The notes under the pieces were generated by a model that ran no database searches, had not been told where the DNA came from, and saw only the letters and a program-made list of their open reading frames with translations. Below are positions 5,639-37,854 of a DNA stretch of 64,000 nucleotides, piece by piece (positions within the stretch are counted from its first letter, which is position 1; the number at the start of each line of letters is the position of its first letter). The DNA is from Chloranthus sessilifolius (Eukaryota; Streptophyta; Magnoliopsida; Chloranthales; Chloranthaceae), in NCBI GenBank assembly GCA_021018995.1, contig CM037587.1:72559604-72623603 (forward strand), read 5' to 3'. A program made the position numbers and the translations under genes.

Positions 5639-5643
5639 TACTT

Positions 5644-7882: not shown

Positions 7883-7887
7883 TACTT

Positions 7888-11381: not shown

Positions 11382-11383
11382 AT

Positions 11384-13838: not shown

Positions 13839-13843
13839 TTAGA

Positions 13844-15741: not shown

Positions 15742-15972
15742 AAAATCGATTAATCGATTTTTGTCAGAAGGAAAATCTAGAGACTGCAACACGAAACTGA
15801 TTAATTGAATTTAATTCGATTAATCAATTTTTGGTTTTTGATTAATCAATTTGGAATTGATTAATCGACTGGGTACTTCTAGTGGATGAAAAATGTGGAG
15901 TTTGGAAAATCGATTAATCAATTTTGAAATTTTGATTAATCGATATTGGGATTGATTAATCGATTTTGACAG
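15742..15972. repeat. Array of TCGATTAATCGA palindromes, B 5' LTR
   Basis: About nine exact or near matches of TCGATTAATCGA in 230 bp with irregular spacing, often followed by TTTT or TTTGG. It lies at about +600 to +830 of the LTR. Irregular spacing argues against a simple satellite. Confidence 0.85.
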
Positions 15973-16990
15973 TTTTTCTTGTGGGTTCTGTTTTGGACCA
16001 TAGAGTTATGGGAGGGCCTTGTACCCTTCCTTTTTGCATCGTTCTTGATGCTTTGTGTGTGACATTGCGTAATTAGGTTTGAACACATGGATTTGAGCAT
16101 GAGGAGCTACTTTGGACCTTGATGCTTGGGGTTGAAGCACGTGAGGTAGGGAATACTTTGAACATGTACTTTGATTACGATAGCATGTATGTAGTGATAT
16201 GAAAATGTGTAGGTAAGTGTTGAGAGCATAGAGATGTGCTCATGTTTCTTTGAAAAGTCGTTGAGCATGTGGAATTGAAGTGTGTGTGTGTGTGTGTGTG
16301 TGAACACTAAGTAAGAAGTATGCTTGTGAGAATGTGACATCCCGGGGGGGTGTGAATGTGATGCGGGCATCTAAGCGATGCATATGAGTAGGTAGCATCC
16401 CAAGGATGTATGGGAGACGTGAACATCCGAGTGATGTGAAATTATTTGAATGAGATTTAAACAAACCTTAAATACTATATTTAGCACAATTACACGGTGA
16501 AAACTATAAGTATTTTTGCACAATTGATTTAAGGTTCATAGAATACCCCATCGACGCGGCGGTATACCTGCGGCTGACTCACCAGGATATCCGTGACCAA
16601 TACAGCGAGGTATTCGTACGCCAGTATGACATCGCAGGGATGTATGTGAGGTTGGTGCCCCGTCGCCTATGAGAAAGGGACTTGGGTCTTATTACATAAA
16701 GAAAAATAGTCTGATTGGACGACGATGGTGGGTATTTCATTGAGGCTCGATGCTATATTGCTCGGGGATTATTTAAGTTATTTGATTTAAGTTTTGAGAC
16801 CGATCTTTTACCTTGTATGAACAAGTTGAAAACAAGATAACAAGTATAGAGTAATAGATGCATTCAGTTCTTGCTTTTAGTAAATTAAACTATTTTCCAG
16901 CTGTCTTTCATTGATAAATTAGTTTTTATTAAGTCATGGAATATATGTGAGTAAGATAGATTTACATGTTCATTCAGTTATTTCCCTATT

Positions 16991-17031
16991 GAGCTATGAT
17001 GTAGCTCACTCTTTCGACTATACGTCACAGG
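16991..17031 (+). promoter_or_regulatory. Conserved LTR hairpin plus TACGTCAC box
   Basis: GAGCTATGATGTAGCTC forms a perfect 6-bp stem with a 5-nt loop and is followed by CTATACGTCACAGG. The same pair occurs in all A, B, C and E LTRs and, varied, in F and I. TGACG/ACGT cores are known bZIP sites, but whether this acts as DNA or RNA is not known. Confidence 0.6.
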
Positions 17032-17134
17032 TCCGGTGTTAGCTGCTGTTGTTGCTTCAGGAGACGTAGACCCGGAGGACCCTGAGTACTTGCCTTCGGA
17101 GGAGTCGGTGCCCCCTCCTAAGGAGTTCTTTTAG
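17015..17134 (+). CDS. Conserved acidic small ORF in B 5' LTR
   Basis: 40 codons with the stop, reading RLYVTGPVLAAVVASG, then a Glu/Asp/Pro-rich part, and ending Pro-Pro-Pro-Lys-Glu-Phe-Phe and TAG. It aligns without gaps to the frames in C (19352-19471) and E (63429-63545). A TGA interrupts the frame in the hairpin just upstream, so a start by splicing is more likely than from an upstream Met. Copy-to-copy differences look largely third-position. Confidence 0.45.
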   Translation, partial: RLYVTGPVLAAVVASGDVDPEDPEYLPSEESVPPPKEFF

Positions 17135-17518
17135 AAGACCCTCTACGTACTTTGATTATTTTGTGAAAGAGATTATACGGCTTGGTATGTTCAGCATTAT
17201 TTTGAGATAATATAATTATGGTGAGACATTCTTTTGGTGAACCATTCGAGGTGACTGCTATTCCCTCACTGATGGTTCGGATTGGTTGTTTTGCTCATGC
17301 AGTGGCATGAGATTAGAACTATCTTTTGGGCTAGATGTTTTTTTTTTGGCTTTATCTTATAGAAATGGAGATTTAATTTAGTATTAGTTTTTAAGTATAT
17401 ATTTTGCTTTCTAGTTGTGTGGATATACCAAATGTTCCGTGCAGGTATATAGGGCACGGCCTCGAGGGTCGTGCCGATGACACGGGTTTCAGGGTATCAA
17501 AATTTGGGCTGTCATAAT

Positions 17519-17530
17519 TGGTATTAAAGC
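17519..17530 (+). promoter_or_regulatory. Primer binding site of element B
   Basis: TGGTATTAAAGC, two bases after the LTR end, a decayed form of the tRNA-Met-type TGGTATCAxAGC. Confidence 0.85.
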
Positions 17531-18182
17531 ACTTTCTTTTTAAATTTTTGACAAGTCTTGATTTCGTCAGAGTATAGGACCTTCTGCTAATGAAATTGTA
17601 GTTTCATGTGCAAAGTGTTATGCCTTCTAGAGGGAGGGGCCGACCGAGAGGCTGTCACAACCCAGATTTTTGAGATCTGTGCACGGCACATACTTACACA
17701 TAGGTGTATGTGTTTCACAAGGAGACCAAAAACGACCCACATACGTTAAGTGTGTACGTGGGAAACACACTAGTATTATCCCAAAAATTTTAGATATAAA
17801 AGTGAAAGAGATAGAGAAGAACCTTTACGTAACTCTATTCTAACCTAAATAGAGAGAAGGAGAATAAAGAGAGAAAGAAGAAAAGAGCCTAGTGGAGAAC
17901 TAGGGTTCATTGAGACTTAGGTCGAAAGAAGGGATCAGAGGAAATGACGGGAGAAAGAACCAGGGAGGTCGGATAGCCGAGTAGATATTCAAATCATAAA
18001 TCGGACACATCGTTGCGTGATTCATACGTCAGTCGTTAAAAAAAAACATGATAGATGCCTAGGAATGTTTTTATATAGTAGGAAGGATGTTGGCTGTAAG
18101 TTTACTTTATATAAGATTAAGGTTAAATGAAGGATGGAAGCATGATCTCGATCTGATCGGGGGACAAAATCATTGTTCCTGG

Positions 18183-18415
18183 CTCGAGCGGCCTTAAGAG
18201 GCTCGCCCGGGGGAGGATGAACAGAGAAAAGCACGACTCTGGGCTCGCCCGAGCGGTCCCTTAAACTAAAGGAAGCTCGCTCGGCGAGGTCCTGATAAAA
18301 TTCGAGCTCGGCGATCTCGATTTGACCGCTCGAGCGAGGTCAAGAGCTCGGCGAGGTCAAGGACCGCTCGGCGAGGGCTAATGACCGCTGGCGAGGTCCG
18401 TGATCACTCAAATAT
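18183..18415. repeat. Array of GCTCGAGCGAG/GCTCGGCGAGG motifs, LTR C
   Basis: About ten copies of GCTCG(A/G)GCGAGG-like and GACCGCTCGGCGAGG sequence in 230 bp at about +530 to +760 of the LTR. It is GC-rich in an AT-rich LTR and partly self-complementary. The place matches that of the TCGATTAATCGA array in LTR B. Confidence 0.8.
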
Positions 18416-19351
18416 TGATTTTTTCTAATATAAGAAACTCGGGTGTCTTACACCCCAAAGACCTTAGATCATCCTAAAGTAAAATTCTTTTAAATGTAGG
18501 TTGATGCATTATAACCCTCTAAGGACAAGCGTGCTTTGAGATTCGTCGAGGTAGGGAATTCTCTCGAACATGTGCATTATTCTGTGAACTCATATGTGTA
18601 GTATAGTCCATTTAAATAGTGTATATTTCATAAATCCTCATGATAAGGGTGTGTGTGCGTGTTCCAATGTGGAAAATCCTGAGGTCCCCAGGGGACGAAA
18701 GATAATGTGGTTAAATCAAAGAAAGGTGAAATAGAAGCATGGGGCATCCCAGGGATGCGTAAGAAAACAAACAGAGAAACAAAGATAACGTGATAAGGCC
18801 TAATGTAATATATTTAGCACAATCACGGTGAATAACTATATGTAAAGCACATTGATACTTTTGTTATTTAAGGTTGATTAGAATACCCCACCGACGTGGC
18901 GGGATACCCACGACTGACTCGGCAGGATATCCGTGACCGGTACGGCGGCCAATCCGTACATTTATAACATCCCAGGGATGTAGATTGAGAATAGACCCCG
19001 CCGCCTATGAGGAAGGGGCTCGGGCAATATTCCCAGGGAATATACTTAACAACTGTCTAGTTAGACGACGATGGCGGGTATTCCATCGGGGCTCGATGCT
19101 ATATTGCTCGAGGATTAATTAAGTTAAGATTTAAGTGATTAGGCCAAGTTCACAAACAAACTTATAAAGAGATTAAACAAAGCCATGATAAGTAGTGATT
19201 GGAACCATTGAGTTATTCCTGTTATCCAAATTGTTGTACATAAATGTTTTTCTTGAAAATTTATATTTTATTAAGTTACTGACATATGTGTGAAGGATGA
19301 TCTATATGTTCTTTTGTTTTCCCTACGGAGCTAGGATGTAGCTCACCCCTT

Positions 19352-19471
19352 AGACTATACGTCACAGGTCAAGGACTAGCGGCGGCAGGGACTTCAGGTG
19401 AAGTTAATCCAAGGGCATCGGAGTCCGTACCCACTGAAGAGACAGAACCTCCTCCTGAGGAATTCTTCTAG
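19352..19471 (+). CDS. Conserved acidic small ORF in solo LTR C
   Basis: 40 codons with the stop. It starts RLYVTG and ends Thr-Glu-Pro-Pro-Pro-Glu-Glu-Phe-Phe and TAG. It aligns without gaps to the B and E frames. Here the frame is also open upstream through the hairpin (ELGCSSP), as in family F. Confidence 0.5.
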   Translation, partial: RLYVTGQGLAAAGTSGEVNPRASESVPTEETEPPPEEFF

Positions 19472-21178
19472 GAAACCCGCTGCATACCCTAAGAGTGAGT
19501 TAAGAGAGTACTGTGTATGACATGATATATCGAACCTCATTATTTGGAAGGTTCAAATACTGTCTCTTGGTAAACTATTTAAGAAGAATAATTGTCATTA
19601 AACTTTTGGGTATGTCCTTATGTCCATGAATTGGCATGGAACAGGGACAGCCTTGTAGGATCAACTATTCTATAACTTCTTATTTTTATTTAGAGTGTTT
19701 GCATGTGCTGAAATTACAGTTTGGCTGTATATATATCGGCGAGTTATGATATGAATTTAAGGCACGACCTTGAAGGTCGTGCAGATGGCACGGATTTTGG
19801 GATGCCGAAATTCGGGCTGTCACAGAGGCGGTCATGGTAGAAACTTGCGGAGCGGAGATGGTTTCTTCTCGGCTTCAAATAAAGTGCCATTAGGGAACAA
19901 CGATGACCCAGGAGGTAGTAGTAAGGAGAATAGAGACCGAGAGGGAAATCAGGATGGAGATCAAAGAGAATAAGAAAGGGTTAGAGAAAGAAATGAAGAA
20001 ATAGAAGAACATCAGAGGATGATGCATACCATGAAAACCATGGAAAACGCCATGACTCAGCAAGCGGCGTCCTTGGAAACTAATAATGTCAATGACCAGC
20101 ATCAGCCACCACCTATGCCTCTAGTGGATACTACACAACCATTGCCCTCAGTGTTCACAGAGTTTAGGAGGATGCGCCCTCTGAGTTTTTCAGGGCAAGC
20201 AGAGCCAATGGACGCAGAGAATTGGCTAAGTGAGATGGAGAAGGTATTCAATGTGCTTACGTGCACTAAGGATGAAAGTGTCCATTGGGCAACATATATG
20301 TTGGATGGGAAAGCAGGCCCATGGTGGAAGTCCATGTCGAGGACTAGAGCTCAAGAAACCCCAGGATTATCATGGACTTAGGATGAATTTGTGACCGAAT
20401 TCAACAAACATTATTTCCCTGAAGTCGTGCGTAACCAGATGGAAGTAAAATTTCTTCAACTTGAACAAGGAGAGATGTCATTAAGGGAATATGGAGTAGA
20501 GTTCATGAGGCTTGCTCTCTTTACCCCTGAGTACGTGGTTACCGACTTGATGAAAGCCAAGAGGCTTCAAAGCGAGTTGAGCCCGGATATCAGGGGAAAG
20601 GTGGCTGCCTTTGAGTTGAAGACGTACAAAGAGGTTATGAGCAAGGCTCTAGTAATAGAAGAAGATAATGAGGATCAATATCGAAGGAGAGACCAATAGG
20701 GAAGAGGAAGGATGGATCACAGTAAAGTGGGAAACTACGAGCTAGTGAACAAAAAGCTGCGATTCGTAGCACCCTTTCAGAGGCAGCAGTTTCAAATCGG
20801 ATATACCAGACCGGCACAGTATACAAATTATTCGAGATTACCTTGCGTCTGGGAGACCAATCAAATATGAGAACCCTACTACCACCACCAGAGTATCAAT
20901 TACTCGGGGTTTCTCATGAGCAGCTTCTTCTACACCAAATGAGACTTGTACCAAGTGTGCCAAGTCTCACAAAATGGTAGATTGTAGACGGGATACTCGG
21001 GGTAGTTACAAGTGTGGGAAGATAGGCCACATGATCCAAGATTGTCCTGAGATGAACAAGGAGAGAGCGACTTTTGCTTCCACGCCGAGACCAATACAAG
21101 TAAAGAAGCTGGTCATGTAAGGTAGAGCCTTTGCGGTTACTACCTAGGAAGCACAGAATGTCAATGACATTATTCAAG

Positions 21179-21322
21179 GTGAGATTTTTCTTTTAAATTA
21201 AGAATTTTATTTACTCAAAGTTTTAGATAGAGAAGGTGCATCCATGTAGGAAGTAGTGTAGACTCATTCCTGTATATCGATCTTTGATATGTAAGTATGT
21301 GGTATATATATGTATGTTATAG
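21179..21322 (+). other. Short GT-AG intron between gag and protease, element B copy 1
   Basis: 144 nt, donor CAAG|GTGAGA and acceptor ATGTTATAG|GTAC, AT-rich with several stops. Removal joins Asn-Asp-Ile-Ile-Gln-Gly to Thr-Leu in frame, the same junction as in element A. In copy 2 only 23 nt remain (29524-29546). Confidence 0.7.
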
Positions 21323-21870
21323 GTACATTATAATTGTATGAAAAGGGAAGTGACGTAGCATATGAAGCTAGAGTATTGATAGACCCAGGGTCTACCCATT
21401 CATTCATTACTCCTCGATTTGCAAAGAAGATGAAGGTTAGCGCAGAGACATTAGATTTTATCTTATTTGTATCTATTTTGACTGGGGAATCGATCGATAC
21501 GGACTTGGTTTATAAGTCGGTGGTAGTGGCTATCAGAGATGGGGACATCTATGAACTTGCAACGAATTTAGTTTTATGGAATATGCAAGGATTCGATGTG
21601 ATCCTTGACATAGATTGGTTGTTAGCTCATTATGCAACGGTCGATTGTAAGAACAAAATCGTTATCTTCAGATCGAATGCTAGGAAATCATTCTAATTTT
21701 GGGGAATGAGACCGACGTTTGTGCCACTTGGGTCCGCAATAAGAGCTGAGCGCTTGATCAGGAAGGGATGCAGTGGTTACTTGTCATTTTTAAAGGAAGA
21801 CAAGGAAGGGAAGAACATCATTTCAAAGATCGTGGTTGCGTGGGAGTTATAGGATGTCTTTTCGAAGGAA
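21323..21870 (+). pseudogene. pol: Protease and linker of element B copy 1
   Basis: After the intron the frame reads to the protease motif VLIDPGSTHSFI near 21377-21410 and on to GFDVILDIDWL. A TAA replaces a Gln codon early (copy 2 has CAA), and stops occur at 21694 and 21850. Confidence 0.85.
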
Positions 21871-23180
21871 TTGTCAGGGTTACATTCTGATAGAGAGGTG
21901 GAATTCACTATCGACTTAGCACCTAAAATGGAGCCTATTTCCAAAGCACCATACCGAATGGCTCCGGCTGAGTTGAAGGAGTTGAAAGGGCAGTTACAAG
22001 AGCTCTTAGATAAGGGGTTTGTGAGACCTAGTGTGTCTCCTTGGGGAGCACCGGTCTTATTTGTAAAGAAGAAGGATGGGTCGATGAGGCTATGCATCGA
22101 CTACCATAAGCTAAATAAACTGACCATAAAGAATCGATATCCTTGCCTCGGATTGATGATTTATTTAATTAGCTGCAAGGCGTGAGATACTTTTCTAAGA
22201 TCAATTTGAGATCTGGATATCATCAACTGAGAGTAAAGGCAGAGGACATTCAGAAGACAGTGTTCAGGACGCGGTACAGACACTACAAGTTTTTAGTGAT
22301 GCCGTTTGGTTTGATGAATTCAACGGTGTCGTTTATGTACTTGATGAATCAGATGTTTAAACTACACCAAGACACTTGCATTGTAGTATTCATCGACGAT
22401 ATTCTGATATATTCAAAATCGAAGAAAGAGCATGGAGAACATTTAAGAATCGCTCTACAAACTCTACGTGAACACCAACTGTATGCCAAGCTCAGTAAGT
22501 ACATGTTTTGGTTGGAGAAAGTTAGCTTTTTGGGACACGTCGTCTCAAAGGAGGGTGTCACAGTGGATCCGGCTAAGATCGAAGCAGTGGTACAATGGAA
22601 ACAATCAAAGACGGTGACAGATATCCGTAGTTTCCTCGGTCTAGTTGGATACTATCGACATTTTATGGAGGGATTTTTAAAAATATCGGGACCACTTACG
22701 AGACTCACAAGGAAAGATGTGAGATTTGAGTGGACTGAAGTGTGTGAAAAGAGTTTTTATGAACTCAAGAAAAGACTCACTTCAGTTCCAGTGCTAGCGA
22801 TTCCTTCAAGCAGTGAAGGGTTTGTAGTGTACAACGATGCTTCACATAGTGGTTTAGGCTGCGTGCTCAACCAAAACAAGAAAGTGATTACTTATGAGTC
22901 GAGACAGCTAAAAGATCATGAGAAGAACTACCTGATACATGACTTGAAACTAGCAACAGTATATTTGTATTGAAAATTGGGAGACATTATTTATACGATG
23001 AGACCTTTGAGATCTTCACCAACCATAAGAGCCTCAGGTACTTATTCACACAAAAAGAATTAAATATGAGGTAGTGAAGGTGGATGGAGTTCCTCAAAGA
23101 CTATAATTTCTCCATACAATATCACCCAGGCGAGGCGAATGTCATAGCAGATGCCTTGAGTCGTAAGGGTTCGGCTCAAT
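21871..23180 (+). pseudogene. pol: Reverse transcriptase and RNase H of element B copy 1
   Basis: RT motifs in order are [53 protein letters not shown] and FIDDILIYS (about 22390-22415), then [11 protein letters not shown]. RNase H follows with [12 protein letters not shown] and ends [16 protein letters not shown] near 23165. A frame change near 22150, a TAG (CAG in copy 2) near 22170 and a frame change near 22970 break it. The catalytic DD pair is intact. Confidence 0.92.
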
Positions 23181-24735
23181 TAGCTAATCTTATCATGGGA
23201 ATGCAAAGATGGAAGTTGTCTGAAGATCTTTCTTTGTATGACACAAAGCTCGAGGTGTAAGCTTCAGGGGATTTCTTGGGCAACATCAAAGTGAGGCCAA
23301 CAATCTTTGAGCATATTTACGAGCTACAGATGAAAGACTCAAAGTTAACCAAAATTCGATAAGATGTGAGTGAGGGCACAAAACCGAAGTTCTTAGTGAA
23401 GGAAGATGGTTCTTTCCTATTCAGGGGACGCCTTTGCATTCCCGTTGATGTCGATCTGCAACAAACTATTTTAGATGAGGCTCACAAATCGAGATGTGAA
23501 ATCCACCCCAGTAGCACCAAAATGTATCACTACCTGAGGAAGAGTTACTGGTGGAGAGGACTAAAATAGGATATAGCCGAGTACTTGTCAAGGTATTTAA
23601 CATGTCAGCAGGTGAAAGTAGACCATAGATATCCTGCAGGTTTACTGCAACCTCTGCCCATACCAGAGTGGAAATGGGAATCAATCTCCATGGATTTCAT
23701 CATGGGATTGCCGCGCACAGTTAAAAGGTATAATGCAATTTAGGTGGTCATTGATCGACTAACCAAGTCAGCCCACTTTTTCCCTATAACACAATATATA
23801 CAGTATGAAGACTCACAAATTTGTATATGAAGGAGATCATACGTTTGCACGGGATTCCTAGAAGTATCGTCTCTGATCATGACCCGTTGTATACTTAAAA
23901 ATTTTGGAAGAAGTTTTAAGAAGGCATGGGTACTCGATTGGACTTTAGTTCGGCATTCCATCCACAGGCCGATGGGCAAATAGAGTGGATAAATCAGGTA
24001 ATAGAAGATATGCTCAGAGCATGTACGCTTGAATTGCAAGGATCATGGGATCAACATCTACCATTGATCGAATTTGCACACAACAATAGTTTTCAGGCGA
24101 GCATTGGAATGGCACCTTACGAAGCTCTCTATGGAAGGCGATGTAGATTGTCAATCAATTGGGAAGAGACCAGCGAAAAGTTTGTATTGGGGCCGGAGTT
24201 ACTCGAAGATAATGCCATCATTGTTCGTATGATAAGAGAGAGACTTAAATCGGCTCAGAGCAGGCAGAAGAGTTACACTGATATCAAAAGAATGTGCGTG
24301 GACTTTTCCATTGGCGATCATGTGTTCGTAAAGGTATTGCCCATGAAAGGCGTTATGAGATTTGGGAAGAGGGGAAAGCTAAGTCCCTATTACCTTGGGC
24401 CTTTTGAGGTTTTGGGTCGAGTCGGTGAGGTAGCGTATCGCATTGGATTACCTCCGTTGTTTGATCGGGTACATAACGTGTTTCATGTATCAATGCTTCG
24501 AAAGTATATAAATGACCCTACACATATCTTGAGAGATTAGCCGATCGAGATGCATGAAGACATGACCATGATAAAAGAGGCAGCTCAAATTTTGGATAGA
24601 AAAGAACAAGTTCTACGCATGAAAGTTATCCCTTTAGTGCTTGTCAGGTGGGGGAATCATCCGGCTGAAGAAGCTACTTGGGAACGCGAGGCGGACGTGA
24701 GGGAATAGTATCCGAACTTGTTTGAGGAGAGCTGA
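23181..24735 (+). pseudogene. pol: Integrase with chromodomain, element B copy 1
   Basis: The HHCC zinc domain lies at about 23480-23615, with CysCys in LTCQQVK. The core has [10 protein letters not shown] (first Asp), a decayed second motif near 23880 and NQVIEDML (Glu) near 24000. The GPY-type module (KLSPYYLGPFEVLGRVGEVAYRI) is at about 24370-24445. The tail ILDRKEQVLR to EEATWERE near 24590-24690 is a chromodomain of the Tekay/Del type, known to target insertion to heterochromatin. Stops include TAG at 24538 and 24706, and a frameshift lies near 23830-23925. Confidence 0.92.
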
Positions 24736-25072
24736 GAGCATGCTTGTAGTATTGCATTTATTTTGTAAAATTAACATGCGTATGTAAGCGAAAGGCCGCA
24801 AGTATATGTCAACATCATTAAGGAAATGAAAAGAAAAATTTTGCTTCTAAATTGGTCTTTTGTGAAATCTAGCACGTTTATCATGAACGTGTATGTATCA
24901 TGAAATTAATGGATGCCAAGTCTTGATTATAGATTTATAGGTGTAGCAATAGGCAGTGCCAAGCTAAAAGGAAAGTCAGTAAGTGACTAGCTTAAAAGCT
25001 ATAGGGAACTTGAAAAAAAAAGGAGGAAAGTAATGAAGAAAAATAAAAAATAAAACTTTTTACAGTTTTTGT
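24736..25072 (+). other. Spacer after pol, element B copy 1
   Basis: About 340 bp with no domain on either strand. The copy-2 equivalent is 32795-33139. Confidence 0.4.
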
Positions 25073-25325
25073 CAAAATCAATTAATCGATTTTGATTTTC
25101 GATTAATCAAAAATTTTTTGATTAAACGACTGGCTCACATCAGTGAGCTGAGGGACCTGGAAAAAATTTTAGAAGTCAAATTTGACTAATCAAATTAAAT
25201 TCGATTAATCGATTTTGAAAATCGACTAATCGATTTTTGAAACCGATTAATCAATTTTGGGCAGCTGGGTTTGAATATTAAAAACCGATTAATCGATTTT
25301 AAAATTTATTAATCAAATTTTCAGA
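25073..25325. repeat. TCGATTAATCGA array upstream of the additional ORF, copy 1
   Basis: About eight copies of TCGATTAATCGA-like sequence in 250 bp, the same motif as in the B LTRs. It ends about 265 bp before the start codon of the additional ORF. There is no other dense cluster within the internal region. Confidence 0.82.
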
Positions 25326-25508
25326 ACAAATAATAGTTTTGGGGAATTTTTTCCCCATTCGAATTTGCATCTGTCTTTTATTTATTTATTTATTTTTACT
25401 TTTTGGACGCCTTTCTTCTCCCTTTGGTTGGCGACAACAGTGAAGGTTTGAAGGATTTGGGGATCAAGATCGAACCAAAACCCTATACATTTGGATCGAT
25501 TGCGCACG

Positions 25509-25576
25509 GTAAGCCCTAAATCTAGAAATTTTTATTGCATTTTGAGTATTTTAAAGCCCTAGGTTTCAATTTTTAG
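25509..25576 (+). other. Possible 5' UTR intron of the additional ORF
   Basis: Donor GCACG|GTAAGCCC and acceptor CAATTTTTAG, 68 nt, T-rich before the AG. It ends 14 nt before the ATG. The same sequence is in copy 2 at about 33559-33626. It suggests that the additional ORF has its own transcript. Confidence 0.4.
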
Positions 25577-25590
25577 TTAAAAACCCTAGA

Positions 25591-26645
25591 ATGCCGCCTA
25601 AAACCCGGCAAGCTTCGAAGCTCGCGGCTTCTAAACTACCCGTACGGCATGCGAGACAATCGGAAGCACCGCCATCACCTTCACCTTCACATTCATCTTC
25701 ATCATCATATTTGACGAAGGCGTCATCACTCCAATCGTCACCACCACCACCTCAACCCGGCCATTTGGCCCAACCAAATGAGTGGTGGGCCGCGAAGGAT
25801 TTTGAGGATGAATACACCATAAACGAAGCTCTTTTTGAGGATCCAGAGGTTGAGGGCGAGACAAAATGGGCCCGAAAATACCTCATTGATGCGAGCCTCG
25901 GTAACCTCTTGAAGCCTTTACATGAATATTATTACCCTAGGCAAGTTAGATTGTTTTACCAAAATCAGAAAGCAGGTAGGGAGGCCGACACAGTTGTGAC
26001 TGAAATTGATGGTCGTAAATATTTTTTTAACCTACGCCACATTCATGAATCCTTAGAGTGTTATAATGTATACGTACCCGAGACCAACCTTTTACCCCTG
26101 TTTGCTCAGCCCGTAGATTTCTATGAAATCAAAACCGAAATGACTCAGGGAAGTAAAGGACATGGAAAATCCATTAGGAGGGTTGATTTACCTCCTCATT
26201 GGTTGATGCTTGATACCATCATTAAGTGTAACCTCTACCCCATGCGCCATGATACCAAGAGGGTGGGGGTGGTGCAACAAGCATTGTATGCGACATATAG
26301 AGGTTGTTGGTTCGACGCTACTAGGTTAGTGTTGGAGGGCATGATTTACATCAAGGGAAAAATAATGAAAGGACCATTAAGACCTAAGGAGCATATGCCA
26401 TATGCTCGTCTCATTTCTTGCATGATCGAGTGCTACTCCATTGCAGTAGAGTATGTTATTGCTGTGACTAAGCCGAGGGCTCCTGACCATGCCAAACTTT
26501 ACTCCTAGAAGCGAACCTATAATCTTTTGAAGAGAGTACTACCATCGAAGGGACCAGCACCTACCCCAGCTTTTGATGCACCACCACAGCAGGACCAACT
26601 AGTAACAGAGGAGCAGCCTCCTAACCCTGTACAGCCTGCAGAGTA
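25591..26645 (+). pseudogene. Additional ORF (aORF) of element B copy 1
   Basis: The frame opens MPPKTRQASKLAASK with a basic, Ser/Pro-rich N-terminus and a poly-Ser run. A globular part of about 200 residues follows, with WWAAKDFEDEY, KYFFNLRHIHESLE, DLPPHWLMLDTIIKCNLYP and ARLISCMIECY. A stop at 26506-26508 precedes a Pro/Gln-rich C-terminal part readable to 26645 and, through more TAG codons, to about 26900. From memory the globular part resembles the 'putative plant transposon protein' domain of retrotransposon additional ORFs. It is not gag, pol or a known envelope. Sense orientation, between pol and the 3' LTR. Confidence 0.75.
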
Positions 26646-27139
26646 GCCTCTTGTACCACCACCTGCTCCTATGTAGTCTGCCCCTGCTACTCCTATGCCA
26701 CATCACCGCCGGCGAGCGCCTCGGACCACAGCTACCATAGACGATGTTTTGCCCATGATGGAGGCAAATAATCAATAGATGAACCACCGACTTGATTTCT
26801 AGGAGTCCACAATGTACTAGCCGCGGACGTGGACTCCTAGCGCATCTGGTTCTAGTACACAAGAGCATGACGGGGACGATCATCGAAGGGATGGGACTGC
26901 CTAATTTTTTGCTTATTGCGTTTGTTTTGTTTTGATCATCTTGTGCATTTTGGGGACATTTTGGGCACATGTAAAACAGTTATGGAACTATGAAGGTGTT
27001 TCTTTTTGGGGACTGTAAATGTGGTGTTAAACAATAGTTGGAAATCTGATGCATTGAACTATATGACATGGTTGCCATTTATTTCTTTTGATCAAATGGA
27101 ATAGCAATTAACGTTACTTTATCATGTTCTCTACAATTA
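26646..27139 (+). other. Decayed aORF C-terminus and 3' region, copy 1
   Basis: Up to about 26900 the sequence still reads as the aORF tail interrupted by TAG codons where Gln is expected. Beyond that it is AT-rich without a frame. Confidence 0.5.
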
Positions 27140-27330
27140 GAATGTTTTGAATTCCTTTTTATGCAGGATGTGTTGTGATTGCTTAGGAAAATGCAAATGG
27201 TTCGAATTTCTTTTATGCAGGATGTGTTGTGAATGCTTAGAAATATGCAAATGGTTCGAGTTTCTTTTATGCAGGGTGGGTAGTGATTGCTTAGAACTAT
27301 ACAAATAGCCTGAGTATATATGCAGAATGC
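27140..27330. repeat. Imperfect tandem repeat before the PPT, copy 1
   Basis: About three to four copies of a roughly 55-bp unit containing TTTATGCAGGATGTGTTGTGA and ATGCAAATGGTTCGA. The same block is present in copy 2 at 35200-35400. Confidence 0.75.
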
Positions 27331-27397
27331 ACTGTGATTGAGTGCATGCTGGATAGAGGGGAAGCCCTTGGGTGCATTTTCGAGGATAAAAATTCCC

Positions 27398-27410
27398 AAG
27401 GTGGAGAGAA
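27398..27410 (+). promoter_or_regulatory. Polypurine tract, element B copy 1
   Basis: AAGGTGGAGAGAA directly before TGTAACATCC of the middle LTR. The identical tract lies before the third LTR. Confidence 0.85.
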
Positions 27411-28203
27411 TGTAACATCCCTAACATCTTGGGCTTAGAATATTATCCTTGAGATACGTGCCGATTTGGTCACTTGTGTGATCAAGTGAAAGTCAACTTG
27501 ATGACTTAAGTTAAATTTGGTTTGAGGTGAAAACGCACCTAGGTGTGTGATATGGATCTTGTTATAAGGCCATATACACCTGTTATGGGTGTATGTGCTT
27601 TGCACCAAAGGAGTGAATTGGTTAAATATGTTAAAGACTAAGAGAAGTTATTTCTCTTTGAGGTTGGTTAGTGCTTAGGAAATTTATGAGGAGCTTACGG
27701 GAAGGCCTGGCGAAGACATTAAATTGCGATGATAAGTGGTCTGGTTTGTTGGAGTTGAAGTTAAGAACCCTAGCTTCTAATCCAAACCATTGAATCAAGC
27801 ACACGACCCGATTCGAGGTAAGGCTTTTCAAATTTATGATGTGTGTGAAGTTTGAGCTTTAATTTAAGGTATAAATGTTGGATTAAAAGAGGGGAGAAAA
27901 GAATGATTGAGAAAAAGGTGAAAGCAAGATGTGCAGCCAAAGAAGGGTTGTTTTCTGTCAAAATCGATTAATCGATTTTTGTTAGTAAGGTAAATCTGGA
28001 GACTGCAACACGAAACTGATTAATCGAATTTAATTCGATTAATCGATTTTTGGTTTTCGATTAATCGATCTGGAATTGATTAATTGACTGGGTACTTCCA
28101 GTGGATGGAAAATGTGGAGTTTGGAAAATCGATTAATCGATTTTGAAATTTTGATTAATTGATATTGGGATCGATTAATCAATTTTGACAGTTTTTCTTG
28201 TGG
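27411..28203 (+). repeat. Middle LTR of element B, truncated
   Basis: 793 bp that match the first third of the other B LTRs, with its TCGATTAATCGA array at 27957-28195. After CTTGTGG it passes straight into gag AGATG. The corresponding bases in the parents are CTTGTGGG and GAGCGGAGATG, so the join shares two or three bases, as in end-joining deletion. Confidence 0.92.
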
Positions 28204-29523
28204 AGATGTTTTCATCTCGTCTTCAAATAAAGTGCCGTTGGGGAACAGCGATGTCCCAAGAGGCAGTAGTCAAGGGAATAGAGACCGAGAGGGAAATCAA
28301 GATGGAGATCGAAGAGAATAAGAAGGGGTGAGAGAAAGAAATGAAGAAAGAGAAGAACATCAGAGGATGATGCATACCATGAAAACCATGGAAAATGCCA
28401 TGACTCAGCAAGCGGCGTCCTTGGCAACTCATAATGTCAATGACCAGCATCAGCCACCACCTATGCCTCTAGTGGATACTACACAGCCATTGCCCTCAGT
28501 GTTCACAGAGTTTAGGAGGATGCGCCCTCTGAGTTTTTCAGGGCAAGCAGAGCCAATGGACGCAGAGAATTGGCTAAGTGAGATGGAGAAGGTATTCAAT
28601 GTGCTTACTTGCACTAAGGATGAAAGTGTCCATTGGGCAACATATATGTTGGATGGGAAAGCAGGCCCATGGTGGAAGTCCATGTCAAGGACTAGAGCTC
28701 AAGAAACCCCAGGATTATCATGGACTTAGGATGAATTTGTGACCGAATTCAACAAACATTATTTCCCTGAAGTCGTGCATAACCAGATGGAAGTAAAATT
28801 TCTTCAACTTGAACAGGGAGAGATGTCGGTAAGGGAATGTGAAGTGGAGTTCATGAGGCTCGTTCTCTTTACCCCTGAGTACGTGGTTACCGACTTGATG
28901 AAAGCCAAGAGGCTTCAAAGCGACTTGAGGTTGGATATTAGGGGAAAGGTGGCTGCCTTTGAGTTGCAGACGTATGGAGAGGTTATGAGCAAGGCTCTAG
29001 TAATAGAAGAAGATAATGAGGATCGATACCAAAGGAGAGACCAACAGGGAAGAGGAAGGATGGATCACAGTAAAGTGGGAAACTACGACCCAGTGAACAA
29101 AAAGTTGCGATTCGTAGCACCCTTTCAGAGGCAGCAGTTTCAAACCGGTTATACCTGACCGGCGTAGCAGACAAATTATCCGAGATTACCTTGCGTCTGG
29201 GAGACCAATCAAATATGAGAACCCTACTACCACCGGAGTATCAGTTACTCGGGGTTTCTCACGAGCAGCTTCTTCTACACCAAATGTGACTTGTGCTAAG
29301 TGTGGCAAGTCTCACAAAATGGCAGATTGTAGACGGGGTACTTAGGGTAGTTACAAGTGTGGGAAGATAGGCCACATGATCCGAGATTGTCCTGAGATGA
29401 ACAAGGAGAGAGCGGCTTCTGCTTCCATGCCGAGACCAATATAAGCAAAGAAGTCGGTCATGTAAGGAAGAGCCTATGCCGTTACTACCCAGGAAGCACA
29501 GAATGTCAATGACATTATTCAAG
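28204..29523 (+). pseudogene. gag: Gag of element B copy 2 (start deleted)
   Basis: It begins inside gag at the equivalent of 19856. Capsid-type motifs and both CCHC knuckles (about 29290-29390) are present. It shares the stop after SWT (28727) with copy 1, but keeps CAG where copy 1 has TAG near 29043. It has its own stops after GRG-region sequence near 29157 and at 29343. Confidence 0.88.
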
Positions 29524-29546
29524 GTGAATAATGTCATATGTTATAG
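29524..29546 (+). other. Remnant of the gag-protease intron, copy 2
   Basis: Only 23 nt remain between CAAG and GTACC, keeping the GT and the TATAG ends. It is too short for splicing and adds 23 nt, so gag and protease are out of frame in this copy. Confidence 0.75.
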
Positions 29547-30000
29547 GTACCTTACAATTGTATGAAAAGGGAAGTGACGTAGCATATGAAGCTAGAGTAT
29601 TGATAGACCCAGAGTCTACCCATTCATTTATTACTCCCCGATTTCCAAAGAAGATGAAGGTTATCCCAGAGACATTAGATTTTATCTTAGTTGTATCTAT
29701 TCTTACTGGGGAATCGATCGATACGGACTTGGTTTATAAGTCGGTGGTAGTGGCTATCAGAGATGGGGATATCTATGAACTGGCAACGAATTTAGTTTTA
29801 CTGAATATGCAAGGATTCGACATGATCCTTGGCATAGATTGGTTGTTAGCTCATTATGCAACGTCGATTGTAAGAACAAAATCTTTATCTTCAAATCGAA
29901 TACAAGGAGATCGTTCTAATTTTGGGGAATGAGATCGATGTTTGTGCCACTTGTGTTCGCAATAAGAGCTGAGCGCTTGATCAGGAGCCTGAAATGGAGC
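29547..30000 (+). pseudogene. pol: Protease of element B copy 2
   Basis: VLIDPESTHSFI stands where copy 1 has VLIDPGSTHSFI, so the active-site Gly is Glu here. A one-base change near 29865 shifts the frame. About 155-160 bp present in copy 1 (about 21765-21922) are missing at about 29985. Confidence 0.85.
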
Positions 30001-31220
30001 TTGTTTCCAAAGCACCATACCGAATGGCTCCGGCCGAATTGAAGGAGTTGAAAGGACAGTTACAAGAGCTCTTAGATAAGGGGTTTGTGAAACCTAGTGT
30101 GTCTCCTTAGGGAGCACTGATCTTATTTGTAAAGAAGAAGGATGGGTTGATGAGGCTATGCATCGACTACCATCAGCTAAACAAACTGATCATAAAGAAT
30201 CGATATCCTTGCCTCGGATTGACGATTTATTTAATCAGCTGCAAGGCGCAAGATACTTTTCCAAGATCGATCTGAGATCTGGATATCATCAGCTGAGAGT
30301 AAAGGTACAGGACATCCAGAAGACAGTGTTCAGGACGCGGTACAGAGACTACCAATTTTTAGTGATGCCGTTTGGTTTGATGAATGCACCGACGTTGTTT
30401 ATGTACTTGATGAATCAGATGTTTAAACTACACCTGGACACTTGTATCATAGTATTCGTCGACGATATTCTGATATATTCAAAATCAAAGAAAGAGCATG
30501 AAGAACATTTGAGAATCGCTCTACGAACTCTACGTGAACACCAACTGTATGCCAAGCTCAGTAAGTGCATATTTTGGTTGGAGAAAATTAGCTTTTTGGG
30601 ACACGTCGTCTCAAAGGAGGGTGTCACAGTGGATCCGACTAAGATCGAAGCAGTGGTAGAATGGGAACAACCAAAGACGGTGATAGATATCCGTAGTTTC
30701 CTTGGTCTAGCTGGATACTATCGACGTTTTATGGAGAGATTTTTAAAAATATCGGGACCACTTACGAGACTCACAAGGAAAGATGTGAGTGGACTGAAGC
30801 ATGTGAAAAGAGTTTTTAAGAACTCAAGAAAAGACTCACATCAGCTCTAGCGCTAGCGATTCCTTCAGGTAGTAGAGGGTTTTTAGTGTACAGCGATGCG
30901 TCACATAGTGGTTTAGGCTACGTGCTCAACCAAAACAAGAAAGTGATTGCTTATGAGTCGAGACAGCTGAAAGATCATGAGAAGAACTATCCGACACATG
31001 ACTTGAAACTAGCAACAGTATATTTGTATTGAAATTTTGGAGACATTATTTATACGGTGAGACCTTTGAGATCTTCACCAACCATAAGAGCCTCAAGTAC
31101 TTATTCACACAAAAAGAATTAAATATAAGGCAGTGAAGGTGGATGGAGTTCCTTAAGGACTATGATTGCTCCATACAATATCACCCAGGCAAGGCTAATG
31201 TCTTAATAGATGCCTTCAGT
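30001..31220 (+). pseudogene. pol: Reverse transcriptase and RNase H of element B copy 2
   Basis: RT is nearly complete with [26 protein letters not shown] and the catalytic FVDDILIYS near 30456-30482. A small deletion between two GAG trinucleotides near 30787 shifts the frame before RNase H. RNase H continues with [15 protein letters not shown] sequence near 30890 and ends near 31220 without the usual ADALSRK (DAFSRMG here). Confidence 0.9.
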
Positions 31221-32794
31221 CGTATGGGTTCGGCTCAGTTAGCTAATCTTATCATGGGAATGCATAGATGGAAGTTGTCTGAAGATCTTTCCTTGTATGA
31301 TGCAAAGATCGAGGTGCAAGCTTCAAGGGATTTCCTGGCCAACATCATAGTGAGGCCAATAATCTTTGATCATATTTACGAGCTATAGATGAAAGACTCA
31401 GAGTTAACCAAAATTCGATAAGATGTGAGTGAGGGCACAAAACCGAAATTCTCAGTGAAGGAAGATGGTTCTTTCCTATTCAGGGGACGCCTTTACATTC
31501 CCATTGATGTCGATCTGTAAAAAACTATTTAGATGAGGCTCACAAATCGAGATGTGCAATCCACCCCGGTATCACCAAAATGTATCAAGACCTGAGGAAG
31601 AGTTACTGGTGGAGAGGACTGAAACAGGATGTAGCCGAGTATGTGTCAAGGTGTTTAACATGTCAACAGGTGAAAGTAGACCATAGATATCCCGTGGGAT
31701 TACTGTAGCCTCTACCCATACTAGAGTGGAAATGGGAATCAATCTCCATGGATTTCATCATGGGATTGCCGTGCACAGCAAAAAGGTATAATGCAATTTA
31801 GGTGGTCGTTGATCGACTAACCAAGTCAGCTCACTTTTTTCCCTATAACACAATATATACAGCATGAAGACTCATAGATTTGTATATGAAGGAGATCGTA
31901 CATTTGCACGGGATTCCCAGAAGTATCGTCTTTGATAGGGACCCGTTGTATACTTTAAAATTTTGAAAGAAGTTTTAAGAAGGCATGGGTACTCGATTGG
32001 ACTTTAGTTCGACGTTCCATCTGCAGATTGATGGGTAAACAGAGTGGATAAATCAGGTAATAGAAGATATGCTCAGAGCATGTACGCTTGAATTGCAAGG
32101 ATCATGTGATCAACATCTACCATTGATCGAATTTGCATACAACAATAGTTTTTAGGTGAGCATTGGAATGGCGCCTTACAAAGCTCTCTATGGAAGGCGA
32201 TGTAGATTGCTTATCAATTGGGAAGAGACGGGCGAAAAGTTTGTATTGGGGCCGGAGTTACTCGAATATAATGCTATCATTGCTCGTATGATAAGAGAGA
32301 AACTTAAATCGGCTCAGAGCAGGCATAAGAGTTACGCCGATATCAAAAGAACGAGCGTGGACTTTGCCATTGGCGATCATGTGTTCGTAAAGGTATTGCC
32401 CATGAAAGGCGTTATGAGATTTGGGAAGAGGGAAAAGCTAAGTCCCTATTACCTTGGGCCTTTTGAGGTTTTGGGTCGAGTCGGTGAGGTAGCTTATCAC
32501 ATTGGATTACCTCCGTTGTTTGATCGGGTACATAACGTGTTTCATGTGTCCATGCTTCGAAAGTATATAAATGACCCTACACATATCTTAAGAGATCAGC
32601 CGATCGAGATGCATGAAGACATGACCATGATAGAAGAGGCAGCTCAAATTTTGGATAGAAAAGAACAAGTTTTACGCACGAAAGTTATCCCTTTAGTGCT
32701 TGTCAGGTGGGGGAATCATCCGACCGAAGAAGCTACTTGGGAACGCGAGGCGAACGTGAGGGAATAGTATCCAAACTTGTTTGAGGAGAGCTGA
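31221..32794 (+). pseudogene. pol: Integrase with chromodomain, element B copy 2
   Basis: The HHCC domain lies at about 31535-31670. The core retains SMDFIMGLP, but the second motif is decayed. The open stretch 32156-32767 holds the GPY-type module and the chromodomain tail (ILDRKEQVLR, EEATWERE). Stops shared with copy 1 include TAA near 31419 and TAG at 32765. Unique stops include TAG for CAG near 31706 and 32153. Confidence 0.9.
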
Positions 32795-33139
32795 GACCAT
32801 GCTTGTAGTATTGCATTTATTTTGTAAAGTTAACATGCGTATGTAAGCTAAAGGCTACAAGTATATGTCAACATCATTAAGGAAATGAAAAGAAAAATTT
32901 TGCTTCTAAATTGGTCTTTTGTGAAATCTAGCATGTTTATCATGAATGTGTATGTATCATGAAATCAATGGATGCCAAGTCTTGATTATAGATTTATAGG
33001 TGTAGCAATAGGTAGTGTCAAAATAAAAAACCAAAAGGAAAGTCAGTAAGTGACTAGCTTAAAAGCTATAGGGAACTTGACAAAAAAAGGAGGAAAAGTA
33101 ATGAAGAAAAATAAAAAATAAAACTTTTTGCAGTTTCTG

Positions 33140-33385
33140 TCAAAATCAATTAATCGATTTTGATTTTCGATTAATCAAAAAATTTTGATTGAACGACTGG
33201 CTCACATCAGTGAGCTGAGGGACCTAGAAAAAATTTTAGAAGTCAAATTCGACTAATCGAATTAAATTTGATTAATCGATTTTAAAAATCGATTCAAAAC
33301 CGATTAATCAATTTCGGGTAGATGGGTTTGAATATTAAAAACCGATTAATCGATTTTAAAATTGATTAATCAATTTTTCAGTACA
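33140..33385. repeat. TCGATTAATCGA array upstream of the additional ORF, copy 2
   Basis: The same position and motif as 25073-25325, with a short deletion that removes part of one unit near 33290. Confidence 0.82.
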
Positions 33386-33640
33386 AATAACAGTTTTGGG
33401 AATTTTTTCCCCATTCGAATTTGCATCTATTTTTTTTTTTTTTTTTTAAATTTTGGACGCCTTTCTTCTCCCCTTGGTTGGCGACAACAGTGAAGGTTTG
33501 AAGGATTTGGGGATCAAGATCGAACCAAAACCCTATACATTCGGATCGATTGCGCACGGTAAGCCCTAAATCTAGAAATTTTTATTGCATTTTGAGTATT
33601 TTAAAGCCCTAGGTTTCAATTTTTAGTTAAAAACCCTAGA

Positions 33641-34705
33641 ATGCCGCCTAAAACACGGCAAGCTTTGAAGCTCGCGGCTTCTAAACTACCCGTACGGCAT
33701 GTGAGACAATCGCAAGCACTGCAATCACCTTCACCTTCACATTCATCTTCATCATCATTTTCGACGAAGGCGTCGTCACTCCAATCGTCACCACCACCAC
33801 CTCAACCCGGCCATTTGGCCCAACCAAATGAGTGGTGGGCTGCGAAGGATTTTGAGGATGAATACACCATAAACGAAGCTCTTTTTGAGGATCCAGAGGT
33901 TGAGGGCGAGACAAAATGGGCCCGAAAATACCTCATTGATGCGGGCCTCGGTAACCTCTTGAAGCCTTTACATGAATATTTTTACCCTAGGCTAGTTAGA
34001 TTGTTTTACCAAAATTAGAAAGCGGGTAGGGAGGCCGGCACCGTTGTGACTGAAATTGATGGTCGTAAATATTTTTTTAACCTACGCCACATTCATGAAT
34101 CCTTGGAGTGTTATAATGTATACGTACCCGAGACCAACCTTTTACCCCCGTTTGCTCAGCCCGTAGATTTTGATGAAATCAAAACCGAAATGACTCAGGG
34201 AAGTAAAGGATCTAGAAAATCCATTAGGAGGGTTGATTTACCTCCTCATTGGTGGATGCTCGATACCATCATTAAGTGTAACCTCTACCCCATGCGCCAT
34301 GATACCGAGAGGGTGGGGGTGGTGCAACAAGCATTGTACGCGGCATATAGAGGTTGTTGGTTCGGCACTACTAGGTTTGTGTTGGAGGGCATGATTTACA
34401 TCAAGGGAAAAATGATGAAAGGACCGTTAAGACCTAAGGAGCATATGCCATATGCTCGTCTCATTTCTTGCATGATCGAGTGCTACTCTGCTGCAGTAGA
34501 GTATGTTATTCCTGTGACTAAGCCGAGGGCTAGTGACCATGCCAAACTTTACTCTATCGCTTCCTGGAAGCGAACCTATAATCTTTTAAAGAGAGTACTA
34601 CCACCGGAGGGACCAGCACCTGCCCCAGCTTTTGATGCACCACCACAGCAGGACCAACCAGCAGCAGAGGAGCAGCCTCCTGACCCTGTACAGCCTGCAG
34701 AGTAG
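33641..34705 (+). pseudogene. Additional ORF (aORF) of element B copy 2
   Basis: It starts MPPKTRQALKLAASK as in copy 1. A TAG at 34016 replaces a CAG of copy 1. After that stop the frame is open from 34046 to 34705 and runs past the place where copy 1 stops, since SIASWKRTYNLLKR is intact here. The C-terminal part is Pro/Gln/Ala-rich (PAPAFDAPPQQDQ). Apart from one stop this is the better preserved copy. Confidence 0.75.
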
Positions 34706-35457
34706 CCTCTTGTACCACCCACCTACTCCTATGTAGTCTGCCCCTGCTACTCCTATGCCACCTCACCACCGGCGTGCGCGTCGGACCACAGCTACCATAG
34801 ACGATGTTCTAGCCATGATGGTGGCAAACAATCAACAGATGAACCACCGGCTTGACTTCTAGGAGTCCACGATGTTCTAGTCGAGAACGTGGACTCCTGG
34901 CGCATCTGGTTCTAGTACACAGGAGCATGACGGGGAGGATGAGACAGGGGATGGGACTGCCTGGTTTTTTGCTTATTGCGTTTGTTTTGTTTTGATCATC
35001 TTGTGCATTTTGGGGACATTTTGGGCACATGTAAAACAGTTATGGAACTATGAAGGTGTTTCTTTTTGGGGAATGTAAATGTGGTGTTAAACAATAGTTG
35101 GAAATCTGATGCACTGAACTATATGGCATGGTTGCAATTTATTTTTTTTGATAAAATGGAATAGCAATTGACGTTACTTTATCATGTTCTCTACAATTAG
35201 AATGGTTTGAATTCCTTTTTATGCAGGATGTGGTGTGATTGCTCAGGAATATGCAAATGGTTCGAATTTCTTTTATGCAGGATGTGTTGTGAATGCTTAG
35301 AAATATGCAAATGGTTCGAGTTTCTTTTATGCAGGGTGGGTAGTGATTGCTTAGAACTGTACAAATAGCTTGAGTATATATGCAGAATGTATTGTGATTA
35401 AGTGCATGCTGGATAGAGGGGAAGCCCTTGGGTGCATTTTTTAGGATAAAAATTCCC
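34706..35457 (+). repeat. 3' region of copy 2 with imperfect tandem repeats
   Basis: Decayed aORF tail with TAG codons to about 34960, then AT-rich sequence, then the 55-bp-type repeat at 35200-35400. Confidence 0.6.
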
Positions 35458-35470
35458 AAGGTGGAGAGAA
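35458..35470 (+). promoter_or_regulatory. Polypurine tract, element B copy 2
   Basis: AAGGTGGAGAGAA directly before the 3' LTR. Confidence 0.85.
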
Positions 35471-35841
35471 TGTAACATCCCTAAAATCTTAGGCTTAGAA
35501 TAGTATTCTCAGGATACGTGTCGATCTGGTCACTTGTGTGATCAAGTGAAAGTCAACTTGATGACTTAGGTTAAATTAGGTTTGAGGTGAAAATGCACCT
35601 AGGTGTGTGATGTGGATCTTGTTATAAGGCCATATAAACCTGTTATGGGTGTATGTGCTTTGTACCAAAGGAGTGAATTGGTTAAATATGTTAAAGACTA
35701 AGAGAAGTTATTTCTCTTTGAGGTTGGTTGGTGCTTAGGAAATTTATGAGGAGAGAGAGATTAGAGAGAAAGGGGGAGTAAATGCTTGGGAGTTAATGCG
35801 AAGGAGCTTACGGGAATGCCTGGCGAAGACATTAAATTGCG

Positions 35842-36216
35842 TGATGAAGGTGAAAGCAAGATGTGCAGCCAAAGAAGGGTTGTTTACTGTCAAAATTGAT
35901 TAAGGTAAATCTGGAGACTGCAATACGAAACTGATTAATCGAATTTAATTCGATTAATCGATTTTTGGTTTTCAATTAATTGATTTGGAATTGATTAATC
36001 GACTGGGTACTTCCAGTGGATGGAAAATGTGGAGTTTGGAAAATCGATTAATCGATTTTGAAATTTTGATTAATTGATATTGGGATCGATTAATCAATTT
36101 TGACAGTTTTTCTTGTGGGTTCTATTTTGGACCATAGAGTTTTGGGAGGGCCTTGTACCCTTCCTTTTTACATCGTTCTTGATGCTTTGTGTGACATTGT
36201 GTGTAAATTAGGTTCT
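35842..36216. repeat. About 375-bp duplicated LTR segment
   Basis: A partial copy of the part running from GTGAAAGCAAGATGTGCAGCC to the TTGTACCCTTCC region lies ahead of its own parent at 36389-36760. The first copy has lost part of its motif array. The join after ATTAAATTGCG lies where the 5' LTR has a continuous sequence. Confidence 0.8.
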
Positions 36217-36982: not shown

Positions 36983-37019
<37 letters not shown>

Positions 37020-37734: not shown

Positions 37735-37854
37735 CGACTATACGTCACAGGTCTGGTGTTAGCTATTGTTGTTGCTTCGGGAGATGTTGACCCGGAGGAC
37801 CCAGAATACTTGCCTGGGGAGAGAGTCAGATCCCCCTCCTGGGGAGTTCTTTTA
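37735..37854 (+). pseudogene. Acidic LTR small ORF, frameshifted copy in B 3' LTR
   Basis: It starts RLYVTGLVLAIVVASGDVDP like the 5' LTR copy, then one extra base in a GAGAGAG run shifts the frame before the Pro-Pro-Glu-Glu end. The DNA still matches the normal end. Confidence 0.5.

Follow-up and report, generated by a model that had tools for sequence, protein, structure and literature searches.

An array of short palindromes common to the long terminal repeats and to the upstream region of an additional gene in Chloranthus retrotransposons: a candidate module for self-specific regulation

The 64,000-nucleotide stretch of Chloranthus sessilifolius DNA considered here (contig CM037587.1, positions 72,559,604 to 72,623,603; in the following, the window) is plant-type DNA packed with long terminal repeat (LTR) retrotransposons, and reverse transcriptase (RT) sequence of the window matches plant proteins. 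One of these elements, the Ty3/gypsy element B, carries in sense orientation, downstream of its RT, ribonuclease H (RNase H), integrase end and weak chromodomain, an additional open reading frame (aORF), which is preceded by a regularly spaced array of the palindrome TCGATTAATCGA, found elsewhere in the element only in the LTR. Judging from the DNA sequence, and with about even confidence, the aORF protein may be regarded as a self-specific regulator, which would bind the palindrome of its own family in the LTR and ahead of the aORF and, by doing so, raise or protect its own transcription.

The array of element B and its additional gene

Element B forms a single tandem structure with an outer target site duplication (TSD), CTCAA, on both flanks (15135-15139 and 38237-38241, by eye). 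Pfam matches identify its RT (RVT_1, E 3.8e-24) and RNase H (E 1.2e-19), and the element is a candidate chromovirus, presumably of the Tekay/Del type. Its features, with array sites counted at up to two mismatches, are the following.

15140..38236, + strand: element B, tandem LTR-internal-LTR-internal-LTR (self-comparison; boundaries by eye)
15140..17516, + strand: LTR1, followed by TTGGTATTAAAGC, resembling a primer-binding site (PBS) (self-comparison, read by eye)
15746..15963, + strand: TCGATTAATCGA array in LTR1, 7 sites
24547..24705, + strand: C-terminal end of the integrase, resembling a chromodomain (E 3.9e-5; 23.9 bits against a cut-off of 25.1)
25078..25296, + strand: array ahead of aORF copy 1, 7 sites, with gaps of 21, 19, 83, 21, 21 and 42
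25128..25145, + strand: spacer dyad GACTGG...CAGTG within that array
25352..25363, + strand: TCCCCATTCGAA, a word between array and ATG
25591..26508, + strand: aORF copy 1, 305 codons open
27411..28203, + strand: LTR2, truncated where the two internal copies join (self-comparison)
27964-28182, + strand: array in LTR2, 8 sites
33146..33373, + strand: array ahead of aORF copy 2, 7 sites
33641..34705, + strand: aORF copy 2, one internal stop
35471..38236, + strand: LTR3, with a 559-bp internal duplication inside (self-comparison, by eye)
35931-36097 and 36438-36656, + strand: arrays in LTR3

The palindrome occurs 21 times exactly in the window, against 0.00 expected, and 45 times when one mismatch is allowed, against 0.20 expected, the exact copies being confined to the LTRs of B and of a related element, C, and to the region upstream of the B aORF. 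At up to two mismatches 63 sites are found, 61 of which lie in the LTRs of B (7, 8 and 15), in that of C (17) and ahead of the two aORF copies (7 each), with 2 elsewhere; the rest of the internal region of B holds none, in either internal copy. An earlier sequence-only reading had described the array as the sole internal cluster of the element and as a feature of every B LTR, and both statements hold. It had also placed the array about 265 bp ahead of the aORF: the upstream place is borne out and the distance is not, the array ending nearer 295 bp before the ATG (site starts ahead of the first copy run from -513 to -306).

When 12-bp palindromes were sought without reference to any motif, the top windows were the arrays of C and of a third family, D, both arrays ahead of the aORF, and LTR1; LTR2 and LTR3 emerge less clearly above shuffled sequence, being reached by 7 and 3 of 200 shuffles, respectively. 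A period scan of the gaps gave a best value of 29.9, which is taken as an artefact because many gaps are near 20, and gap counts are relied on instead. Among the mismatched bases of the window sites, 45 of 60 are C>T or G>A changes at CpG positions of the motif, a pattern typical of copies that have been methylated and silenced. The spacer dyad GACTGG...CAGTG recurs at 28086, 33195, 36001, 36560 and 62050 (+) and at 46223 (-), which makes 7 occurrences in the window where 0.41 would be expected, each of them inside an array (of B, C or D, or ahead of the aORF). Its presence in arrays with differing palindromes hints at a single array origin, and it is possibly a separate binding site.

The association extends to the host genome assembly (2.17 Gb), which holds 241,617 copies of TCGATTAATCGA against 55 of the reversed word. 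A search with the aORF protein scored 129 places, from 47,693 first-look candidates, and the best 30 of these were taken as a sample; they are 71-100% identical, belong to one family and are not independent, two of them being the window's own. Upstream distances were measured from the start of the match, a position that coincides with the ATG in 26 of the 30. At least five sites (up to two mismatches) are present in the 600 bp upstream of 28 of the 30 loci, in arrays whose upstream ends range from -596 to -417 and whose downstream ends range from -313 to -243. Over the 30 loci, 205 sites lie upstream and none in the 915-bp bodies of the ORF, with 2 in the next 900 bp upstream and 33 downstream; eight scrambled palindromes, pooled, give 11 upstream sites. 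A looser form of the GACTGG...CAGTG dyad is found upstream in 11 of the 30.

The word TCCCCATTCGAA, which occurs 1,786 times in the genome against 132 for its reverse, offers a second view, through loci chosen by the word and not by the aORF (481-bp stretches at places 2-21 of the match list). In 18 of these 20 places, 11-15 sites are found at near-fixed distances (-47, -68, -109, -130, -151, -170, -233 and further), for a total of 234 sites against 0 for eight controls, and the four commonest gaps, of 19-22 bp, make up 156 of 216; given the chance share of 132 in 1,786, about 1.5 false places are to be expected among the 20.

Conservation was assessed on an alignment of 28 aORF loci, from which the two loci lacking an array were left out, so that identity in the array region is somewhat favoured. 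Column identity is 0.884 in the aORF and 0.892 in the array, against 0.807 in the flank before the array and 0.825 in the one that separates it from the ATG: the array is conserved to the same degree as coding DNA, and its flanks less so. Within the array, the ATTAAT core of the motif reaches 0.963 as compared with 0.888 for the spacers (0 of 10,000 permutations). All motif columns pooled are only slightly above the spacers (0.909 vs 0.888; 1,160 of 10,000 permutations) because identity falls to 0.74 at the outer CpG bases (motif positions 2 and 11). The aORF itself is under purifying selection, with a median ratio of nonsynonymous to synonymous substitution rates (dN/dS) of 0.20 (5-95% range 0.11-0.41, over 378 non-independent pairs). 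The 5' untranslated region intron that had been suggested just before the ATG is unproven and doubtful, the donor GT being kept in 24 of 28 loci and an acceptor AG at the corresponding alignment position in 6.

Other families and other palindromes

Palindrome arrays are found in two further families of the window.

61327..63913, + strand: 5' LTR of element C, PBS next, 68-78% like B in aligned pieces
61908-62373, + strand: array of TCGATTAATCGA in the C LTR, 17 sites (up to two mismatches)
44765..47208, - strand: LTR of family D, apparently solo, left end approximate
46058-46448, - strand: array of TTGATCGATCAA in the D LTR, 15 sites (up to one mismatch), most gaps 19-23 bp

Twelve stretches around listed TCGATTAATCGA places were examined, and aORF matches were found in two. 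One (L011) is an element of family C, in which an LTR array, integrase, a 17-site array (up to one mismatch), a TATATATAAAT box, the aORF and a 3' LTR resembling, by eye, the C LTR of the window follow one another; no match to the RT piece of B is present within this stretch. Its aORF has a frame break and is 57% identical to that of B over 260 residues, and changes between the B and C aORFs fall 86, 72 and 170 times on the three codon positions. The TTGATCGATCAA array of family D, of which the sequence-only reading made no mention, surfaced in the motif-blind scan. Genome-wide, TTGATCGATCAA occurs 65,226 times against 317 for its reverse, and the four arrays that were fetched all lie within D-type LTRs, one of the loci being a solo LTR.

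Relatives of the aORF resemble the Pfam domain PF20167 (Transposase_32) at scores below its cut-off: six of nine aORF pieces have a match at a threshold of E 10 (best E 1.5e-7), the window copy not being one of the six, and in four of five relatives the match spans model positions 4 to 134-170 of 177. A search of the genome for this domain gave 150 scored places, all over the cut-off, from 13,855 candidates, and the 1.2 kb before the ORF was analysed in 12 of the 150, picked for spread, with 100 shuffles each. In seven of the 12 a family of near-palindromes exceeds all 100 shuffles. Five of these regions (L083, L084, L086, L087 and L088) hold 4-9 copies of a ACGGACGTCCGT-type palindrome, frequently in pairs 20-22 bp apart, one (L089) has three copies of ACCTCGCGAGGC and one (L093, C2:145362470-145363670) four copies of GTGGTTAACCAC, with the PF20167 match further on. 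In the last case the array precedes a PBS-like sequence and is thus probably in the LTR, and the ORF may be a 5' aORF driven by the LTR itself.

The ACGGACGTCCGT family with its PF20167 ORF is Ty1/copia: RVT_2 is above the cut-off in the 3.4-kb stretch (L098) before L088, and gag_pre-integrs and rve domains are present in the stretch (L099) before L084. The two 3,361-bp stretches L098 and L099 hold no ACGGACGTCCGT site at up to two mismatches. Downstream of the ORF, on the LTR side, ACGGACGTCCGT is present in all four loci checked, out of the five (nine sites at up to two mismatches, three exact), and the best of 89 scrambled palindromes reaches 2. A word resembling a polypurine tract (PPT) precedes these downstream sites in three of the four, and this word, along with the position, places them in the LTR by inference; from PPT and layout, the family is presumably SIRE-like. 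The palindrome thus differs between families, being TCGATTAATCGA in B and C, TTGATCGATCAA in the D LTRs and ACGGACGTCCGT in the copia-type family, and the co-variation of aORF and motif for which the earlier reading had proposed to look is found in the comparison of B and C with the last.

Other repeats of the window were inspected as well. Within element B, at 17653..19824 (+ strand), lies a nested solo LTR with TSD GAGGC (by eye), which has CTCGGCGAG-like GC-rich repeats at 18150-18400, about 20 bp apart by eye, in an LTR position similar to that of the arrays of B, C and D. As a further palindrome these repeats were rejected, being a by-eye impression with no significant excess (63 of 200 shuffles). 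Repeat family A, LTR-like and on the minus strand (853-3273, 5643-7883, 11383-13839), has tandem repeats of about 190-215 bp, and its first copy, the one scanned, shows no dense palindrome array (22 vs 14.62 expected, 13 of 200 shuffles). Element H had been offered as a second example of the layout, and its GCGC words are indeed concentrated at 51185-51570, 53640-54130 and 56740-57030, the last of these in the LTR and the other two ahead of antisense ORF modules. This enrichment is weakened by the choice of the regions for their GCGC content. None of the three has an excess of even palindromes (73, 49 and 179 of 200 shuffles hold at least as many), and the LTR cluster alone has an excess of odd-centre palindromes (1 of 200). 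The composition of H is clear and a defined motif is not, and the same architecture is not borne out.

A self-specific regulator and its alternatives

In the mechanism that we propose, the aORF would encode a protein that recognises a short palindrome in DNA, most probably as a dimer, and that would bind the regularly spaced palindromes of its own family at the LTR, the source of genomic RNA, and in the region upstream of the aORF, presumably a promoter. The self-addressed loop so established would raise the transcription of its own family alone, or shield it from silencing, and palindrome and protein would be expected to co-evolve. When a gene under selection lies behind an array found elsewhere in the element only in the LTR, and the arrangement is repeated in a second superfamily, the simplest single cause would be that the protein of the gene reads the palindrome; perfect dyads at a spacing of two helical turns suggest, in addition, a dimer repeated along one face of the DNA. 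A different palindrome accompanying a PF20167 ORF in a copia-type family is the co-variation predicted by a self-specific regulator of the VANC type known from Arabidopsis, and the copia assignment from RVT_2 counts for it. Activation or anti-silencing would be favoured over repression because of the enormous spread of the families. More tentatively, and with somewhat less than even confidence, PF20167-type accessory proteins might form a general class of retrotransposon-encoded sequence-specific regulators, common to Ty3/gypsy and Ty1/copia elements, each with its family's own palindrome about two helical turns apart in the LTR and ahead of the regulator, protein and palindrome diverging together, as a private code that would aid spread to tens to hundreds of thousands of sites.

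Several observations weigh against a self-specific regulator. At the level of the DNA, two of the 30 aORF loci lack the array, and CCCATTCGA, the core of the word between array and ATG, is found exactly in just nine of the 30; one of the two aORF matches near TCGATTAATCGA places (L009) has no array upstream, but there the integrase match and the aORF match are some 140 bp apart, and the region that should separate them has probably been deleted. Once the motif sites are masked, no alignment remains between the arrays ahead of the aORF and those of the LTR. For family D no aORF was found, the flanks of the four loci holding one weak match (L061, C1:11359200-11360200, tblastn, beside a D-type LTR) that could be due to chance (E 0.009, 27% over 81 residues), and helical phasing in the D array is weak (R 0.43). 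Five of the 12 PF20167 loci (L082, L085, L090, L091 and L092) have no significant array; of these, L082 is joined to a copia RT piece, the L085 stretch is mostly ORF and L091 is reached by 7 of 100 shuffles. At the level of the protein, changes between the two window copies fall 27, 24 and 24 times on the three codon positions, without bias, as expected of decaying copies. Four of five aORF relatives match PF20167 at 27.8-32 bits, below the cut-off of 45, and the fifth has no match at E up to 0.01; the window copy has no PF20167 match and no Pfam match of note. PF20167 is itself a domain without assigned function, Pfam scans recognise no DNA-binding domain in the aORF, and a predicted structure was set aside for its low confidence (pLDDT, predicted local distance difference test, of 34). 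Searched against proteins predicted from public genomes, the aORF finds 0 matches, while the element's RT as query finds 7,975; against PDB sequences there are weak matches only (best E 0.049 over a 20-residue stretch), and none with a larger profile.

The main rival, a serious one if on the whole unlikely, is that a host transcription factor, different for each family, drives both LTR and aORF, the aORF protein doing something else. Repeated host-factor boxes are carried by the LTRs of the plant elements Tnt1 and Tto1, which provide precedents, and ATTAAT and GACGTC are words that may be homeodomain-like and bZIP-like (basic leucine zipper), respectively. A TATA-like sequence after the last site in L011 and in five of nine copia-type stretches is what an enhancer would lead one to expect, and the aORF without a recognised DNA-binding domain fits equally. 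However, such a factor gives no reason for the motif to differ among families with related aORFs, or for differing palindromes to accompany PF20167-type ORFs at a similar spacing of 19-22 bp, and the 241,617 sites would presumably be a heavy sink for it.

Rather improbable, in our estimate, is that the aORF protein acts as a copy-number brake, shutting down transcription from LTR and aORF once it has accumulated. Many repressors are dimers that bind palindromes and regulate their own gene, and the arrays do lie close upstream of the aORF and, in the copia-type family, of an LTR-side TATA-like box in three of four loci; hundreds of thousands of genomic sites suggest, indirectly, families that are not restrained, and the studied plant system that comes closest, VANC, acts against silencing (PMC5735166), again an indirect point. 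That the array ahead of the aORF descends from a stretch of LTR that was copied there and retained by chance, its tandem repeats expanding by slippage without function, would agree with the GACTGG...CAGTG spacer common to both arrays as a hint of shared origin, and with the absence of visible similarity after masking of the motif sites, and is disfavoured, to the point of being very improbable, by an array that matches coding DNA in conservation when its flanks do not, by near-fixed site positions over 18 loci and by the recurrence of the layout in a copia-type family with another palindrome.

The VANC-like module that the earlier reading had envisaged survives in part: layout, selection on the aORF and co-variation of the motif speak for it, and the parallel in element H and the intron are not confirmed.

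Relation to known systems

Additional genes are known from other plant LTR retrotransposons, in which their role is given as unknown or undetermined (PMC7264820, PMC11963269). Gene23 of Grande, like the aORF of B, is an extra gene between pol and the 3' LTR, with its own promoter and a nuclear product; it is antisense whereas the aORF of B is sense, and an array common to LTR and aORF is not described for Grande in the accessible text (PMC7264820). The antisense ORFs of Retand encode a predicted DNA-binding TRP28 domain (PF04195), for which a regulatory role has been proposed, as here, and lie in a region with tandem repeats, which are not stated, in the part of the source available, to be palindromes shared with the LTR (PMC11963269). 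A 3' aORF of sunflower Athila elements has the same Pfam domain, Transposase_32, and is predicted to be nuclear, with no cis array or tested function described in the portion used (PMC11728184). A search of the literature over titles and abstract openings, with few subscription papers and no preprints, returned no report of an array common to LTR and aORF, and for TCGATTAATCGA itself the match concerns Vibrio only.

The nearest functional parallel is that of the VANDAL elements of Arabidopsis, whose VANC proteins bind to short, tandemly arrayed motifs in the non-coding DNA of the elements and bring about a loss of methylation; the motif differs from one related family to the next (PMC5735166, PMC10398659). 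VANDALs are Mutator-like DNA transposons, whereas element B is an LTR retrotransposon with RT, RNase H, an integrase end and a chromodomain-like end. VANC has DUF1985/DUF287, while the B and C aORFs are PF20167-like, and Pfam scans of nine aORF pieces at E up to 10 gave no match to either, so that the aORF protein is not VANC itself. Motif binding and demethylation have been demonstrated for VANC, and motif binding by the present protein is a proposal made from sequence; the sites are, unlike those of VANDAL, perfect palindromes about 21 bp apart, located both in the LTR and ahead of an internal gene. Common to both systems are an accessory gene encoded by the transposable element, family-specific arrays of short motifs in its non-coding DNA and related elements with different motifs, and in the present elements cis-sites, gene and geometry coincide. 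If the proposal is correct, PF20167 would acquire a first role, a natural set of palindrome-reading proteins with specificities differing by family would be at hand, and self-addressed control, or anti-silencing, would not be limited to the VANDALs of Arabidopsis and would be a strategy of very abundant plant elements.
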